The position numbers and the translations under genes are program-made. Under the pieces are notes generated by a model. That model saw only the letters and a list, made by a program, of their open reading frames with translations. It did not search any database and was not told the DNA's origin. Shown piece after piece: positions 5,724-44,167 of a stretch of 64,000 bases of DNA. This stretch comes from Chloroflexia bacterium SDU3-3 (GTDB lineage: Bacteria > Chloroflexota > Chloroflexia > Chloroflexales > Roseiflexaceae): positions 124,001 to 188,000 of the forward strand of contig WBOU01000006.1 in the NCBI GenBank assembly GCA_009268125.1. Reading direction: 5' to 3'. Each line of letters begins with the position of its first letter. Positions within the stretch are counted from its first letter, which is position 1.

Positions 5724-5858
5724 CCTGGCACAAGGGCGCTGCAAGGCGGCGCGCGGCCCTAGCGCGGAAGGGGACTGGCTTCCTATTGCCTAGCGGCGGT
5801 TTTCACGTACCCTATGGTACAATGATTGCACACAGCGAGCTAGATGGGGGAGAAGGCT

Positions 5859-6515
5859 ATGGGAAGGCGACCGCAACCGGTGAACGAAATTTTTGGCGCG
5901 TGGCGCAGGCTGTTCCAGGGCCGCGCCCCCGAGCGGCTGCCCAAGGGCGCGCTGATCTACTCCCCAGATCAGCGGGCCGAGGATCTGCTGCTGCTGACCG
6001 ACGGCGAGGTAGGGCTGTACCTGCAGGCCCCCGAGGGCCGGACGCTGATGGTGCGGGTGGTGCAGCCGGGCCAGATCTTCGGGCATATGGCCGTGGGCGA
6101 GCCGGGCAGCTACGACACCTTCGCCGAGGCCCAGTCGCCCGCCCGCGTGTACCGCGTGGGCCGCGAGCAGCTGGCCCAGCTGGTGCAGCAGGAGCCAGAG
6201 CTGGGGCTGGAGCTGCTGGATGACCTGGGCGAGCACCGCCTGGGCGTGAGCCGCATGCTCGACGAGGTGGCGTTCAAGTCGGTGCCGGCGCGGCTGGCCA
6301 CGCTGCTGCTCGACCTGGCCAACCGCCACGGGGCGCACTCGCTGCAGTTCCCGCGCCAGTCGCACCGCCAGCTGGCCGAGATGGTGAACGCCTACCGCGA
6401 GACGGTGACGAAGGTGATCAACCAGTTCCGCGCCGACCACCTGCTGGAGATCGACCGCTCGACCATCCGCCTGCTGAACCTGCGGGTGCTGGAGGAGCTG
6501 GCCCACGGGGTGTAG
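5859..6515 (+). CDS. Crp/Fnr-family transcriptional regulator
   Basis: A 218-residue protein with an N-terminal cyclic-nucleotide-binding-type beta-roll (about residues 15-120) and a C-terminal winged helix. The recognition region (about 165-195) reads HRQLAEMVNAYRETVTKVINQF, as in Crp/Fnr proteins. No Fnr-type cysteine cluster is present, so it is probably not an Fe-S oxygen sensor. The start at 5859 is chosen over an ATG at 5844 because GGGGGAG lies 7 bp upstream. A TACAAT hexamer at 5817 may be its -10. Confidence 0.85.
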   Translation: MGRRPQPVNEIFGAWRRLFQGRAPERLPKGALIYSPDQRAEDLLLLTDGEVGLYLQAPEGRTLMVRVVQPGQIFGHMAVGEPGSYDTFAEAQSPARVYRVGREQLAQLVQQEPELGLELLDDLGEHRLGVSRMLDEVAFKSVPARLATLLLDLANRHGAHSLQFPRQSHRQLAEMVNAYRETVTKVINQFRADHLLEIDRSTIRLLNLRVLEELAHGV

Positions 6516-17039: not shown

Positions 17040-17078
17040 CTGGTGCCCCACGCACCCGCCGTGACCCAGGAGCACGCC

Positions 17079-20000
17079 GTGTCTGTTCTCACCACGATCA
17101 TCACCTCGCCCACCCCCGAGGAGCGCGACCGCTCGCTCGACGCCTTCTGCCGCGACGCCACGGTGGATGCGCTGCTGCGCGAGTGCGCCGAGCTGGATGC
17201 GCTGCGCCGATCCAGCGACAACCTCTACCATCGGGTGCGCGCGCTGTTCTTTCTCTACGCGATCTACCGATTCTATCTACCGCGCCACGCCCAGGCCTCG
17301 TGCCGTGGCCTCATCCCCTTCGAGGGCTACGAGCACCTGCTCAACCGCCGCTTCGAGGAGGCGATCACGGTCTTCAGCGAGGCCGCCCAGGCCGAGGGGC
17401 CGACCGACGCGCTGTGCAGCGCGCTGGCCAACGCCTACCACCGGCTGGCCTTCCAGACCCTGGCCGACCAGGTGCGCCGCTCGGTGCGCTCGGTGCGCGG
17501 CAACCAGTGGATGTTCCGCGTCGGCCACCCGTTCGACCAGCCGCTGCGGGTGCGGCCCGAGCTGCTGCGCCCGCTGGATGCGCACGGCTACGCCTTCCCC
17601 GTGCTGCGCGAGACCACGCCGGTGCGCATGGATCTGACCCACAGCGGCTGGAGCGACATCTTCTTCCTGGGCATGGATTTCCCCGAGGGCGCGCAGGTGC
17701 TGAACGTCTCGATCGACCTGGGCGTGCACGGGCGCGACGCCGCCCCCAGGCCGCCGGTCGAGGCCTACTTCCGCGTGATCGACCAGCCGGTGCTGCGGCT
17801 CACCAGCATCGACCTGGCCACCACCGCCGACATCACCGACCTGTCCGAGGTCTTCGACTTCGCCCGCGACTACCTGGGCCTGCTCAAGGCCGCCCTGATC
17901 GCGGCAGGCGTGGTGCCGCCCGGGATCGAGGGGTCGGGCCAGAAGCTCTCGGATCTGCTGGCGCGGATGGTCGGCCAGGGGCGCGGCATCGAGCTGGTGA
18001 GCCAGGTCAACGACATCCCCAAAGGCTCGCGGCTGGCCGTTTCCACCAACCTGCTGGCCGCGCTGATCGCGGCGTGCATGCGCGCCACCGGGCAGGCCAC
18101 ATCGCTCACCGGCCAGCTGCGCGAGGACGAGCGGCGGCTGGTGGCCGCCCGCGCCATCCTGGGCGAGTGGCTGGGCGGCTCGGGCGGCGGCTGGCAGGAT
18201 TCAGGCGGCGTCTGGCCGGGGATCAAGCACATCCAGGGCACGCTGGCCACCGAGGGCGACCCCGAGCACGGCATTAGCCGGGGGCGGCTGCTGCCAAGCC
18301 ACCACATCCTCACCCGCGACCAGGCATCCGACGCCACACGCCAGGCCCTGCAGGATAGCCTGGTGCTGGTGCACGGCGGCATGGCCCAGAACGTCGGGCC
18401 GATCTTGGAGATGGTGACGGAGAAGTACCTGCTGCGCAGCGATGCCGAGTGGGTTGGCCGCCAGGACGCGATTAGCATCCTTGAGCACATCCTGGCCGCC
18501 CTGCGCGATGGCGACATCGCCGCCATCGGCGAGCTGACCACCCGCAACTTCTTCGGCCCGATCCAGACGATCATCCCCTGGGCATCCAACCTCTACACCG
18601 AGCAGCTGATCGCCCAGGCCCGCGAGCGCTTCGGCCAAGACTTCTGGGGCTTCTGGATGCTCGGCGGCATGTCGGGCGGCGGCATGGGCTTTATCTTCGC
18701 GCCCCACCGTAAGGCCGAGGCCCAAGAGTACCTGCAGACCATGATGCGCGAGACCAAGCGGCGGCTGGAAAACGCGCTGCCCTTCGCCATGGACCCGGTG
18801 GTCTACGACTTCGCGATCAACGAGCGCGGCACCTACGCCGACCTGCTGGAGGGCGACAGCGCGCTGATGCCGCCCGGCTACTACGCCCTAACGGTGCCGC
18901 AGATGCTGCGGGCCGACCCGCGCAGCCTCGCGCCCTCGCGCCGCGCCGAGCTAGAGCGCTTCGGGATGGCGGTGCGCACCCAGCCCCAGCTCTCCACCAT
19001 GGTGCCCAAGCTGTTCGACCTGCTGCTGCCGCGCGCCCAGGAGGACGGCGGCGGCGCGCAGACGCTCCAGGCCCTGCTTGAGCAGAATGGCTTCGACCGG
19101 CTCCAGCACGAGCAGATCCGCGCCGACCTGCGCGCCGGGCGCATCGGGCTACTGCAGAACCGGCTCGCGCCCACCACCGACATCCGCGACGTGGAGCAGG
19201 GCGATGTGGTGGACGCCACCGGCGGCCTGCCCGACGAGCTGCGCGCCCTCGGCGCGGCAGCGCTCCAGCGCGGCGAGGTGGCCGTGGTGTCGCTGGCGGC
19301 GGGCGCAGGCAGCCGCTGGACCCAGGGCGCAGGCGTGGTGAAGGCGCTCCACCCCTTCGCCAAGCTAGGCGGCAGGCACCGCACCTTCATCGAGACCCAC
19401 CTGGCCAAGAGCCGCCGCGCCAGCAGGCTGGCCGGAACGCCGGTGCCGCACATCTTCACCACCAGCTACCTGACCCACGGCCCCACCGAGGCCTACCTGC
19501 GCAGCGAGGCCAACTACGGCTACCAGGGGCCTCTGTTGCTCTCGCCGGGGCGCTCGGTGGGCCTGCGGCTGGTGCCCATGGCCCGCGACCTGCGCTTCGC
19601 CTGGGAGGAGACCGCCCAGCAGATCCTGGACGCACAGGCCCAGAAGATGCGCGACAGCCTGCACTCGGCCCTGATCGGCTGGGCGCTGGGCACTGGCGAG
19701 GGCAGCGACTACACCGACAACATGCCCAGCCAGTGCCTGCACCCCACCGGCCACTGGTTCGAGCTGCCCAACATGCTGCGCAACGGCACGCTGGCGCGGC
19801 TGCTGGCTGAGCGCCCCCAGCTGCGCTACCTGATGCTGCACAACATCGACACGCTCGGGGCCGACCTCGACCCGGCGCTGCTGGGCCTGCACATCCAGCG
19901 CGGCGGCGCGCTGACCTTCGAGGTGATCACCCGCCGGATCGAGGATCGCGGCGGCGGCCTCGCCCGCGTGGATGGCCAGCTGCGCCTGCTGGAGGGCCTG

Positions 20001-20402
20001 GCGATGCCGCGCGAGGAGGACGAGTTCACGCTCTCGTACTACAACACGCTCACCACCTGGATCAGCATCGACCAGCTGCTCGACGCCTTCGGGCTGCGCC
20101 GCGAGGATCTGGCCGATGAGGAAAAGGTCACGGCGGCGGTGCGGGCGCTGGGCGCGCGGCTGCCCACCTACATCACCCTGAAGGATGTAAAGAAGCGCTG
20201 GGGCCACGGCCAGGAGGACATATTCCCGGTGGCGCAGTTTGAAAAGCTGTGGGGCGATATGACCGCGCTGGCCGACCTGCGCAGCGTGTTCGTGGCGGTG
20301 CCCCGCCCGCGCGGCCAGCAGCTGAAGGATCAGGCCCAGCTCGACGGCTGGCTGCGCGACGGCACGGCGGCCTATGTCGAGGGCCTGTGCGAGTGGGACT
20401 GA
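17079..20402 (+). CDS. fusion of GHMP sugar-kinase-like region and UDPGP-type pyrophosphorylase
   Basis: A 1107-residue cytoplasmic protein. Residues about 1-330 are a helical region of unknown function. About 330-560 resembles GHMP kinases of the fucokinase/heptose-kinase type: [12 protein letters not shown]…PGIKHIQG near 367-386 and [12 protein letters not shown] near 528-539. The C-terminal part is UDPGP-like. It has a nucleotide loop [12 protein letters not shown] near 734-745, a distant Lys, then [10 protein letters not shown] and a [12 protein letters not shown] box. This order is reversed compared with the known bifunctional Fkp (pyrophosphorylase first). It may phosphorylate a free sugar and activate it to an NDP-sugar; the sugar is unknown. 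The GTG at 17079 is preferred because of CCAGGAG 6 bp upstream. Confidence 0.7.
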
Positions 20403-20512: not shown

Positions 20513-21952
20513 ATGAAGCCCACCGCCGAGCAGCGCAACGCCGCATCCCCAACCCAACAGCACGCCCGCAAGATGGCCGAGCAGCGCGCCGAGCTTCAGC
20601 GGCGGCAGATCGCCGAGCTGGCCACGCTCGCGTGCTTCCAGGGCGTGCCCACCGCGGTGCTGCAGGGGCTCGCCCCGCACTGCACCCTGCGCATCCTCAC
20701 GCCGGGCGGGCCAAGCCTTGAGCAGGGCCGCCAGCCAAGCCTCTACATCGTGCTGCAGGGCCAAGCCGACCTGGCCCTGATCGACCAGCACCACCGCACT
20801 GTGGAGATCGGAACCTATAGCCGGGGCGCGTGCTTTGGCGAGGGGCCGCTGTTCGGCGCGATCTTCCGGGGGGTCTACGCCGAATCCAGCGAGCTATGCT
20901 CGCTGCTGCAAATCTCGATCGAGGCCGTGCGCACCGCCAGCGCGGCCAGCCCCGCGCTGGCGGCCAACCTGCGCGAGGTCTACCGACACCACCTGGCCGC
21001 CCACGCGCTCAGCCGCACCCAGCTCTTCCAGTCGCTCGCCCCCGCCGAGCGCGACCAGATCGCCCAGATGCTCACGCCGCACACCTACGAGCACGGCCAG
21101 CAGATCATCGCCCTCGGCGAGCCGGGGTCGGCGCTCTACCTGATCGAGTCGGGCCAGTGCGTGATCAGCCGCGACGGCGCGCTGATCGCCCAGCTGGAAG
21201 ATGGCGCATTCTTCGGCGAGATCTCGCTGCTGACCGGCAGCAGACACACCGCCGACGTCCACGCCATCACGCCCACCACTGTGCTTGAGCTGCCGCGCTC
21301 CACCTTCCTCGATCTGATCGAGCGCCACGCCGAGCTGTCCCAGCAGCTCCACCACCTCGTCGAGCAGCGGCTGCAGGCGCAGTCATCCCAGAGCCACGAT
21401 GGCCACCTGGCGCTGGTGGGCAGCGCCATACCGCACGGGCTGCTGCGCGGCTCGCACCTGCTGGTGCGCGACACCACGCGCTGCCCCGATGGCTGCTCGC
21501 TCTGCACCCAGGCCTGCGCCGAGCGGCACGGCCAGCCGCGCCTGCGGCCAAACGGCGTGGCCTACAAGCACCTCGACCTGATGGACGCGTGCCGCCAGTG
21601 CAGCAGCCAGCCCGAGTGCGTAGCCGCCTGCCCGCACGATGCCATCCAGCGCGCTCCCAACGGCGCGCTGATCATCACCGGCAGCTGCGATGGGTGTGGC
21701 AAATGTGCCCCGGCCTGCCCCTACGATGCCATCACGATGATCGACCACCCCTTCACCCCGCAGCCCCAGCTGCAAAAGCTCTGGCAGCGCCTCATCCGCC
21801 GCAATGGCGAGATCGCGCTCGACCCTGTGCGCCCGGCCCAGAGCCCCGACAAATGCGATCTCTGCCACGGCCACAGCGACCTCGCCTGCGTCGAGGGCTG
21901 CCCGACCGGGGCGCTCCGGCTCATCCCCGTCGACGAGATCTTCCCGTTCTAG
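20513..21952 (+). CDS. two cyclic-nucleotide-binding domains fused to a multi-cluster ferredoxin
   Basis: A 479-residue cytoplasmic protein. Residues about 45-150 and 165-285 are two cNMP-binding beta-rolls; the second is well preserved (GEPGSALYLIESGQCVI, DGAFFGEISLLTGSRHTADV). Residues about 320-475 hold four cysteine groups: CPDGCSLCTQAC, CRQC…CVAACP, CDGCGKCAPACP and CDLC…CVEGCPTGAL. This suggests up to four [4Fe-4S] clusters of the DMSO-reductase B-subunit/HycB type. No DNA-binding domain is present. A plausible role is a ligand-gated electron-transfer module; the partner oxidoreductase is not nearby. A TAGAAT hexamer at 20465 may be the -10. Confidence 0.8.
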   Translation: MKPTAEQRNAASPTQQHARKMAEQRAELQRRQIAELATLACFQGVPTAVLQGLAPHCTLRILTPGGPSLEQGRQPSLYIVLQGQADLALIDQHHRTVEIGTYSRGACFGEGPLFGAIFRGVYAESSELCSLLQISIEAVRTASAASPALAANLREVYRHHLAAHALSRTQLFQSLAPAERDQIAQMLTPHTYEHGQQIIALGEPGSALYLIESGQCVISRDGALIAQLEDGAFFGEISLLTGSRHTADVHAITPTTVLELPRSTFLDLIERHAELSQQLHHLVEQRLQAQSSQSHDGHLALVGSAIPHGLLRGSHLLVRDTTRCPDGCSLCTQACAERHGQPRLRPNGVAYKHLDLMDACRQCSSQPECVAACPHDAIQRAPNGALIITGSCDGCGKCAPACPYDAITMIDHPFTPQPQLQKLWQRLIRRNGEIALDPVRPAQSPDKCDLCHGHSDLACVEGCPTGALRLIPVDEIFPF

Positions 21953-43349: not shown

Positions 43350-44042
43350 TTACTGGCAGCGCTGGGCGAGGGCATCCTGGTTGAGCACCGTGATGCGAGA
43401 ATCTTGGTCGACCGCCACGTAGCCCTGCTGGCGGTAGAAGGCCAGCACCTGGTTGACCCGCACGCGCGATGCGCCGACCATGCCGGCCAGATCGGTCTGG
43501 CTGAGCCGCAGGGGGATGAGCACACCCAGCTGCTGGGGCTGGCCGTACTCGTTGGCGAAGGCCAGCAGCTGGCGCGCGACCCTCCCAAATACATCTAACG
43601 TCGCCAGGGCCTGAATTTGGGCATTGGCCAGGCGCAGCCGCCGCGAGAAGATGCGCACGAGATTAGAGTTCATCTCGGGGATGCGCTGGATACTTTGCTC
43701 GAAGCTGCGGCCATCCATCCACAGCACCTGCGAGTCTTCGAGGGTCTCGACGGTGGCCGAGCGCCCGATGTTCTCGAGCACGCTCATCTCGCCCACCAGC
43801 TCGCCTGGCCCGAGGATGGCCAGGATCACGCTGCTGCCATCAACCTGCTCGGCGTGGATCTTGACCGTGCCTGAGAGGATGATGTAGACCACCTCGCCGG
43901 GCTGCTCGGCGGTGGCGATATCGGTGCCCGCCGACACCTGGCGGCGGCGGAGAATGGTGTTGAGGTGTTGAAGCTGCTCAAGCCCAAGGTTATGAAAAAG
44001 TGGTAGCTTTCCTAACGTTTGTGGATCGGAGACAGCTGGCAT
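43350..44042 (-). CDS. Crp/Fnr-family transcriptional regulator
   Basis: A 230-residue regulator. The N-terminal beta-roll (about 15-125) has PGEVVYIILSGTVKI and GELVGEMSVLENIGRSATVE, close to canonical cNMP-binding boxes, although the Arg-Ser pair that binds cAMP reads RSATVE, which is compatible. The C-terminal winged helix is RLSQTDLAGMVGASRVRVNQVLAFYRQQGYV. The ATG at 44042 has GAGG 7 bp upstream. It stands upstream of the sigma-like gene and may control it. Confidence 0.9.
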   Translation of the reverse strand: MPAVSDPQTLGKLPLFHNLGLEQLQHLNTILRRRQVSAGTDIATAEQPGEVVYIILSGTVKIHAEQVDGSSVILAILGPGELVGEMSVLENIGRSATVETLEDSQVLWMDGRSFEQSIQRIPEMNSNLVRIFSRRLRLANAQIQALATLDVFGRVARQLLAFANEYGQPQQLGVLIPLRLSQTDLAGMVGASRVRVNQVLAFYRQQGYVAVDQDSRITVLNQDALAQRCQ

Positions 44043-44167
44043 TACCAAACCTCATCAACAGCTTGCGTCAGACAACGACGCAATCATCTTCCGCACATTT
44101 GCCGATGCCGGTATGGTATCATATATTTCACGATGTTTATACCAGAGAATTGCGCTTTCAGCCCCGC

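Follow-up and report, generated by a model that had tools for sequence, protein, structure and literature searches.

Gene and domain organization

The window, that is, the whole stretch of 64,000 nucleotides that was analysed, carries at positions 20513 to 21952 an open reading frame for a protein in which two cyclic-nucleotide-binding (CNB) domains are followed by a ferredoxin. The features of the gene, all on the forward strand, are as follows.

20513..21952, + strand: CNB-CNB-ferredoxin gene, from ATG to stop, 479 amino acids; the open reading frame has exactly the extent originally predicted
20690..20923, + strand: CNB domain 1 (CNB1), about residues 60-137 with approximate ends; second PF00027 stretch; PF00027 match in the organism's own genome at G000:C6:144717-144935; strands of the model at 57-135
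20834..20881, + strand: phosphate-binding-cassette segment of CNB1, residues 108-123, with E110 and R119; Glu and Arg in 29/45 order orthologs and 10/11 longer homologs
21080..21328, + strand: CNB domain 2 (CNB2), residues 190-272; best PF00027 stretch; modelled CNB fold match
21212..21259, + strand: phosphate-binding-cassette segment of CNB2, residues 234-249, with E236 and, by alignment to PKG, His245 at the expected Arg
21329..21427, + strand: residues 273-305, comprising the last helix of CNB2 (C-terminal) and a helical linker that leads into the ferredoxin; model helices at 273-291 and 296-305
21482..21517, + strand: Cys motif I, C324-x3-C-x2-C-x3-C335; kept in 45/45 and 11/11
21590..21631, + strand: Cys motif II, C360-x2-C-x5-C-x3-C373; kept in 45/45 and 11/11
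21686..21718, + strand: Cys motif III, C392-x2-C-x2-C-x3-C402; kept in 45/45 and 11/11
21854..21901, + strand: Cys motif IV, C448-x2-C-x7-C-x3-C463; kept in 45/45 and 11/11

Comparison with Pfam identified cNMP_binding (PF00027) in two stretches (E 6.2e-30; 103.5 bits against a cut-off of 27.5), and five 4Fe-4S families together with LdpA_Fe-S-bd and Fer4_2 exceeded their cut-offs. Neither a helix-turn-helix nor any other DNA-binding family matched the protein in Pfam at E ≤ 1. Its 16 cysteines fall into four groups (C324/328/331/335, C360/363/369/373, C392/395/398/402 and C448/451/459/463). The original prediction of two cNMP-type domains, with a four-cluster ferredoxin fused behind them and no DNA-binding domain, was thus borne out by the two conserved PF00027 stretches, by 16 conserved cysteines of the HycB/AorA kind and by the Pfam search. 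The CNB-CNB-ferredoxin architecture is real and far beyond chance, since the 16 cysteines are kept in all 45 order orthologs and in the 11 longer homologs described below.

A relation to encapsulins was rejected, the best NCBIfam row reaching 66.6 bits against a cut-off of 400 and covering the CNB part only. No promoter or terminator pattern was seen for the gene. Elsewhere in the window, two ordinary CRP/FNR-type regulators (CNB plus HTH_Crp_2) are encoded at 5844-6515 and 43350-44048. An open reading frame of 1119 amino acids occupies 17043-20402; only its residues 896-1015 match Pfam UDPGP, the first approximately 800 residues being without a family match.

Relatives of known structure

An AlphaFold2 model of the window protein, built with 37 sequences, had a mean pLDDT of 85.9 and a pTM of 0.77. 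By sequence, the nearest solved relatives of the N-terminal half were the regulatory domains of PKG and PKA. The best PDB relative of the ferredoxin half was HycB3 of the H2-dependent CO2 reductase (7qv7_A), with which all four cysteine groups align; this half also matched the Fe-S subunit of the aldehyde:ferredoxin oxidoreductase (AOR) of Aromatoleum (8c0z_C, E 8.8e-08). Tandem CNB regulatory subunits were the top matches when the model was submitted to Foldseek (best E 1.8e-17), and trypanosome PKAR structures occurred among the matches. Query TM-scores were only 0.22 to 0.32, so the domain arrangement of the window protein is not matched. With VIA-align, model residues 149-292 (CNB2) were superimposed on the CNB domain of the M. 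loti channel with a Z of 18.5 and an rmsd of 2.9 over 139 aligned residues.

Each of the known systems shares one half of the protein. HycB3 and HycB4 (7qv7) have the same four cysteine groups, but lack a CNB head and serve a different enzyme, and the window protein has C-x3-C instead of C-x2-C in motif I. The PKA regulatory subunits and PKG share the tandem CNB domains and give the best sequence and fold matches, whereas the window protein has no kinase partner segment, lacks the phosphate Arg in CNB2 and carries a ferredoxin as effector. PF00027 is likewise shared with the CRP/FNR transcription factors, which differ in their helix-turn-helix. FNR-type proteins combine a CNB fold with an Fe-S cluster. 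In bacteria there are also thioredoxin reductases that carry a fused CNB domain; here too the domain sits on a redox enzyme, but this is a flavoenzyme and not a multi-cluster ferredoxin.

Also related on the ferredoxin side is AorA (8c0z), which according to PMC10413684 likewise has four clusters, in a double-ferredoxin fold placed between AOR and the acceptor; it lacks a CNB head, however, and the match spans only residues 16-104 of the ferredoxin query. Neither "cyclic nucleotide" nor "Chloroflex" occurs in the main text of that paper. Among the open-licence papers listed, no title or abstract opening described a CNB-ferredoxin, a weak indication that none has been reported. Effectors regulated by CNB domains are known, as are ferredoxins with four clusters; what appears to be new is their conserved fusion, tied to AOR and to flavoprotein/cytochrome clusters.

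Conservation and distribution

The CNB-ferredoxin was present in 51 of 60 relatives and in 43 of the 47 better genomes. A search of 400 genomes of the phylum gave 54 matches at 1e-20, of which 38 came from the same family or order, 15 from one other family (f24) and one from a peptidase-CNB protein. The last, L069:8406-10541, is a protein of 711 amino acids that combines two CNB domains with an M50 peptidase domain. Matches in a contig scan came from Chloroflexus, Roseiflexus, Chloroploca, Oscillochloris, Kouleothrix and Herpetosiphon.

For the alignment, 45 orthologs from the order (the truncated L029 being left out) were combined with the longer f24 proteins, taken from 11 of the 15 genomes of that family. 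The 16 cysteines were all found in 45/45 order orthologs and 11/11 longer f24 homologs, and in a set of 21 further homologs each of them was kept in 20 or 21. In a quick tree of 63 rows, from which L139 had been dropped and L187-L189 lost to a motif filter, the 41 CNB-fused ferredoxins fell on one side and the 22 ferredoxins without CNB on the other with a support of 65, consistent with a single origin of the fused form. A record titled Gracilibacteria (L127) contains a copy that shares 34% identity with the window protein; the genome of this record is 5.8 Mb in size, and the contig is therefore probably misbinned.

Ligand pockets

Alignment with PKG places H245 of CNB2 on the phosphate Arg. 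Among the 45 order orthologs, CNB1 has the Glu in 34, the Arg in 34 and both in 29, and the window protein has both (E110 and R119); CNB2 has the Glu in 41, His at the Arg position in 40 and Arg in none. The longer f24 homologs have Glu and Arg in CNB1 in 10/11 cases and Glu in CNB2 in 0/11, and the 21 further homologs have both residues in CNB1 of 12 and in CNB2 of nine. The four aligned copies from genus g8 lack the Arg in CNB1 and both pocket residues in CNB2. Judged from these residues, the canonical phosphate site survives mostly in CNB1, with whole clades having lost it, and of the two domains of the window protein only CNB1 seems capable of holding a cyclic phosphate.

Class III cyclases were counted as PF00211 matches, which were found in 43 of 59 relatives, with seven in the organism's own genome. 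Eight g8 genomes have the CNB-ferredoxin and no PF00211 match, in three f2 genomes that likewise gave no match CNB1 retains its Glu and Arg, and the Herpetosiphon-type family lacks both pocket residues in CNB1 yet has at least 16 cyclase matches per genome. Cyclase presence does not follow the state of the pocket in these three groups, and cyclases were rejected as proof of a cAMP or cGMP ligand.

The PKA of trypanosomatids offers a precedent for another kind of ligand. PMC10959531 reports a phosphate Arg replaced by polar residues, a Glu in place of an Ala in the pocket and natural nucleosides bound at nanomolar affinity; there, loss of the Arg accompanies nucleoside binding, which cautions against assuming cAMP. 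The regulatory subunit described there (PMC10959531) shares with the window protein a CNB fold with a replaced phosphate Arg, but both of its sites are changed and a Glu has been gained, whereas here the Arg is absent only in CNB2 and no Glu has been gained. The position of the trypanosome Glu is taken by P112 in CNB1 and by S238 in CNB2.

The original prediction, that a small ligand gates electron flow directly, had been staked on pocket residues and cluster ligands. The cluster ligands held throughout (16/16 cysteines in 45/45) and CNB1 of this protein has its Glu and Arg; the pockets held only in part, the CNB2 Arg being found in 0/45 and whole clades being degenerate. Direct gating by a cyclic nucleotide is thus possible through CNB1, as far as pocket residues can indicate, and would not be general across the family.

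AOR as candidate partner

In family f4, an AFOR_N match divergently adjoins the CNB-ferredoxin gene, by coordinates, in 17 of the 18 genomes having the latter; the eighteenth (G051) has no AFOR_N match. The neighbour, a tungsten-type AOR, proved to be a full AFOR_N plus AFOR_C protein in 3/3 cases tested with Pfam. The start-to-start gaps were 67 to 327 bp in nine f4 loci, and in three further loci the longest open reading frames of the two genes overlap because of early start codons. Neighbour analysis of 29 order loci put AOR (cluster 1) in 12, all of f4. Once this recurrent neighbour was recognized as AOR, the reading of the CNB-ferredoxin as a solitary gene was overturned. Among the other neighbours, cluster 9, to which the downstream neighbour of the window gene belongs, occurred in five loci of the window's own family, and cluster 5, glycosyltransferase-like by eye, in seven loci of three families at varying places and strands.

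Both the CNB-ferredoxin and an AFOR_N match were found in 44 of the 60 relatives, the ferredoxin only in seven, AFOR_N only in six and neither in three. Both being near universal, these counts by themselves give no significant association. The ferredoxin-only genomes (G005, G024, G026, G029, G032, G035 and G051) include several nearly complete ones, and with the six AOR-only genomes they indicate that the pair is not obligate. AOR as the sole partner is ruled out by the 7/51 ferredoxin genomes without AFOR_N.

The organism's own genome has one AOR, at G000:C5 (L227:7830-9671), unlinked to the window gene. Its identity is 58% with the f4 neighbour and 30% with a second AOR type, and its four cluster cysteines (C299/302/306/504) are shared by 18 to 20 of the 20 AORs compared. 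No gene with a CxxCxxCxxxC motif was found within about 4.5 kb of it, or near the AOR loci of f1, f2 and f3 genomes (12 loci fetched, AOR flagged in eight). Outside f4 the two genes were not adjacent at the loci examined, and no redox gene was identified next to the window gene. An enzyme-less ferredoxin locus and a ferredoxin-less AOR locus thus coexist in this genome, and the sister family f4 has both together. The own-genome AOR is flanked by genes resembling tRNA-modification genes and not by a ferredoxin. In G007 (genus g8) the AFOR_N match lies in a different open reading frame of 1014 amino acids (L230:7072-10116), unlike the other AORs of the order.

In Aromatoleum, according to PMC10413684, AorA with its four clusters is the wire that connects AorB with AorC, an NAD-binding flavoprotein. 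This precedent, together with the f4 adjacency, makes AOR the best candidate, and it is probably the main partner of the CNB-ferredoxin in the order; in the organism's own genome, where the genes are unlinked, AOR is a putative partner.

Distant homologs and their gene cassettes

The window protein shares the CNB-CNB-16-Cys architecture with distant homologs. In 10/10 loci the genes flanking the longer f24 protein include members of a flavoprotein cluster and of a membrane-protein cluster, and Pfam gave Pyr_redox_2 plus two FHA domains for one member of the flavoproteins. At the eleventh locus (L061:2109-6263) Pyr_redox_2, two FHA and two CNB domains and the ferredoxin are all encoded in a single open reading frame of 1384 amino acids, which the membrane gene adjoins.

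Among 247 genomes around an Acidobacteriota record, a query of 720 amino acids gave 150 matches, most of them only to its NuoG-like end; the CNB-ferredoxin part was found in at least 18 genomes (20 loci) among the matches listed. The next gene at these 20 loci fits the membrane protein by His-x13-His in 13, and a same-strand gene with at least seven CxxCH motifs lies within 6 kb in 19. Pyr_redox_3 is fused to the CNB-ferredoxin in L184, and a Pyr_redox-FHA-Fer2 gene lies nearby in L181. Elsewhere the protein was rare, with one genome in 246 around an Actinobacteria record and two in 198 around a Desulfovibrionaceae record. The copy from the Actinobacteria search (L158:434-2596, 720 amino acids) has a NuoG-like Fer2_4 head before CNB-CNB-ferredoxin, and a second flavoprotein gene adjoins it; it is 62% identical to a sequence of the Acidobacteriota search, its closest group, and the contig may be misbinned.

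Four His with a spacing of 14 residues are invariant in 12/12 sequences of the membrane protein, which mostly has three to five hydrophobic segments; haem binding is predicted from these features. Its model had a pLDDT of 81.6, and the best PDB match in a fold search was only at E 0.21; Ferric_reduct stayed below the Pfam cut-off. We take the protein to resemble the NOX/ferric reductases. It matched in six f4 genomes at E ~1e-32 and in three more relatives only at E 0.003-0.009. The organism's own genome (G000) gave no match to it (A4) at E ≤ 0.01, and none of the matches listed from 30 relatives, G000 included, spans both parts of the Pyr_redox-FHA flavoprotein. The cassette of the distant homologs was therefore not carried over to this genome, from which the membrane protein is absent.

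The six f4 genomes (L197, L198, L199, L200, L201 and L202) have a separate cassette in which a Pyr_redox_2 flavoprotein and the four-His membrane protein are encoded together with a cytochrome c that has 15 CxxCH motifs. It is complete in five, L199 ending at a contig edge; none holds a CNB gene, and some are preceded by a small two-cluster ferredoxin gene.

Proposed function and alternatives

The ferredoxin half almost certainly serves to carry electrons, and its enzyme partner is most likely AOR in Chloroflexales and a flavoprotein in other lineages. For the whole protein we favour, at about even chances, an electron wire that serves mainly AOR and bears a ligand-responsive tandem CNB head. 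AOR would draw electrons from aldehydes and pass them through the four [4Fe-4S] clusters, which presumably assemble in the window protein, to a further acceptor; AorA plays a similar part between AorB and AorC. The CNB head would serve as a regulatory and docking module in which CNB1 binds a small ligand, most likely a nucleotide. On binding, the CNB helices and the linker (residues 136-168 and 273-305) may shift and so alter docking or electron flow.

The domains, the invariant cysteines, the matches to HycB3 and to the AOR subunit, the f4 neighbour and the co-occurrence of both genes in 44/60 argue for the wire, as do the electron-transfer genes beside the distant homologs; against AOR as its enzyme stand the 7/51 genomes without AFOR_N, the six AOR-only genomes and the lack of adjacency outside f4 at the loci examined. 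The responsive head is supported by CNB1 Glu plus Arg in 29/45, 10/11 and 12/21 and by the seven own-genome class III cyclase matches, and weakened by the CNB2 Arg in 0/45, by CNB1 degenerate in whole clades and by the eight g8 genomes without a cyclase match.

These last observations are what a CNB pair acting as a ligand-free structural or docking module would lead one to expect, for example in dimerisation or in holding AOR, the protein being an ordinary constitutive electron carrier. No CNB2 Arg occurs in the 45 orthologs, the CNB1 pocket has been lost in clades that keep the gene and its 16 cysteines, and the protein occurs in the eight g8 genomes that gave no class III cyclase match. Such a module has more difficulty with the retention of CNB1 Glu and Arg in 29/45 order orthologs, 10/11 longer homologs and 12/21 homologs from distant groups. 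It is the main rival and a possible explanation, and the ligand-responsive wire was preferred over it as the more probable of the two.

A head binding a ligand other than a cyclic nucleotide, such as a purine nucleoside in the manner of the trypanosomatid PKA regulatory subunits, is unlikely. The precedent in PMC10959531, the trypanosome PKAR among the Foldseek matches and the His for Arg in CNB2 of 40/45 would agree with it. CNB1 has its Arg here, however, and the Glu described for the trypanosome pocket corresponds to P112 in CNB1 and S238 in CNB2.

The reverse flow of information, with the Fe-S clusters sensing redox state or oxygen and the CNB domains acting as output onto another protein, recalls the CNB fold and Fe-S cluster of FNR-type proteins and agrees with the absence of an identified redox gene adjoining the window gene, but is very unlikely given four complete groups in HycB/AorA spacing that resemble a wire, the f4 AOR neighbour and relatives fused to or next to flavoproteins and next to multiheme cytochromes.

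Implications

Second messengers act on transcription, kinases and channels. Going beyond the ligand-responsive wire, the CNB-ferredoxins might form a family of second-messenger-gated wires, in which binding to CNB1 would open or close the flow of aldehyde-derived electrons in Chloroflexales and, elsewhere, the flow that leads from an NAD(P)H flavoprotein to multiheme cytochromes by way of a b-haem-type membrane protein, while FHA domains would add control by phospho-signals; so broad a scheme is doubtful. A signal-controlled electron carrier as such is plausible from the sequence evidence. The family spans the whole order, from Chloroflexus, Roseiflexus, Chloroploca and Oscillochloris to Herpetosiphon, and the f4 AOR neighbourhood supplies a concrete and assayable candidate partner for such a carrier. 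If true, its direct control would amount to a fast switch on cellular electron flow.
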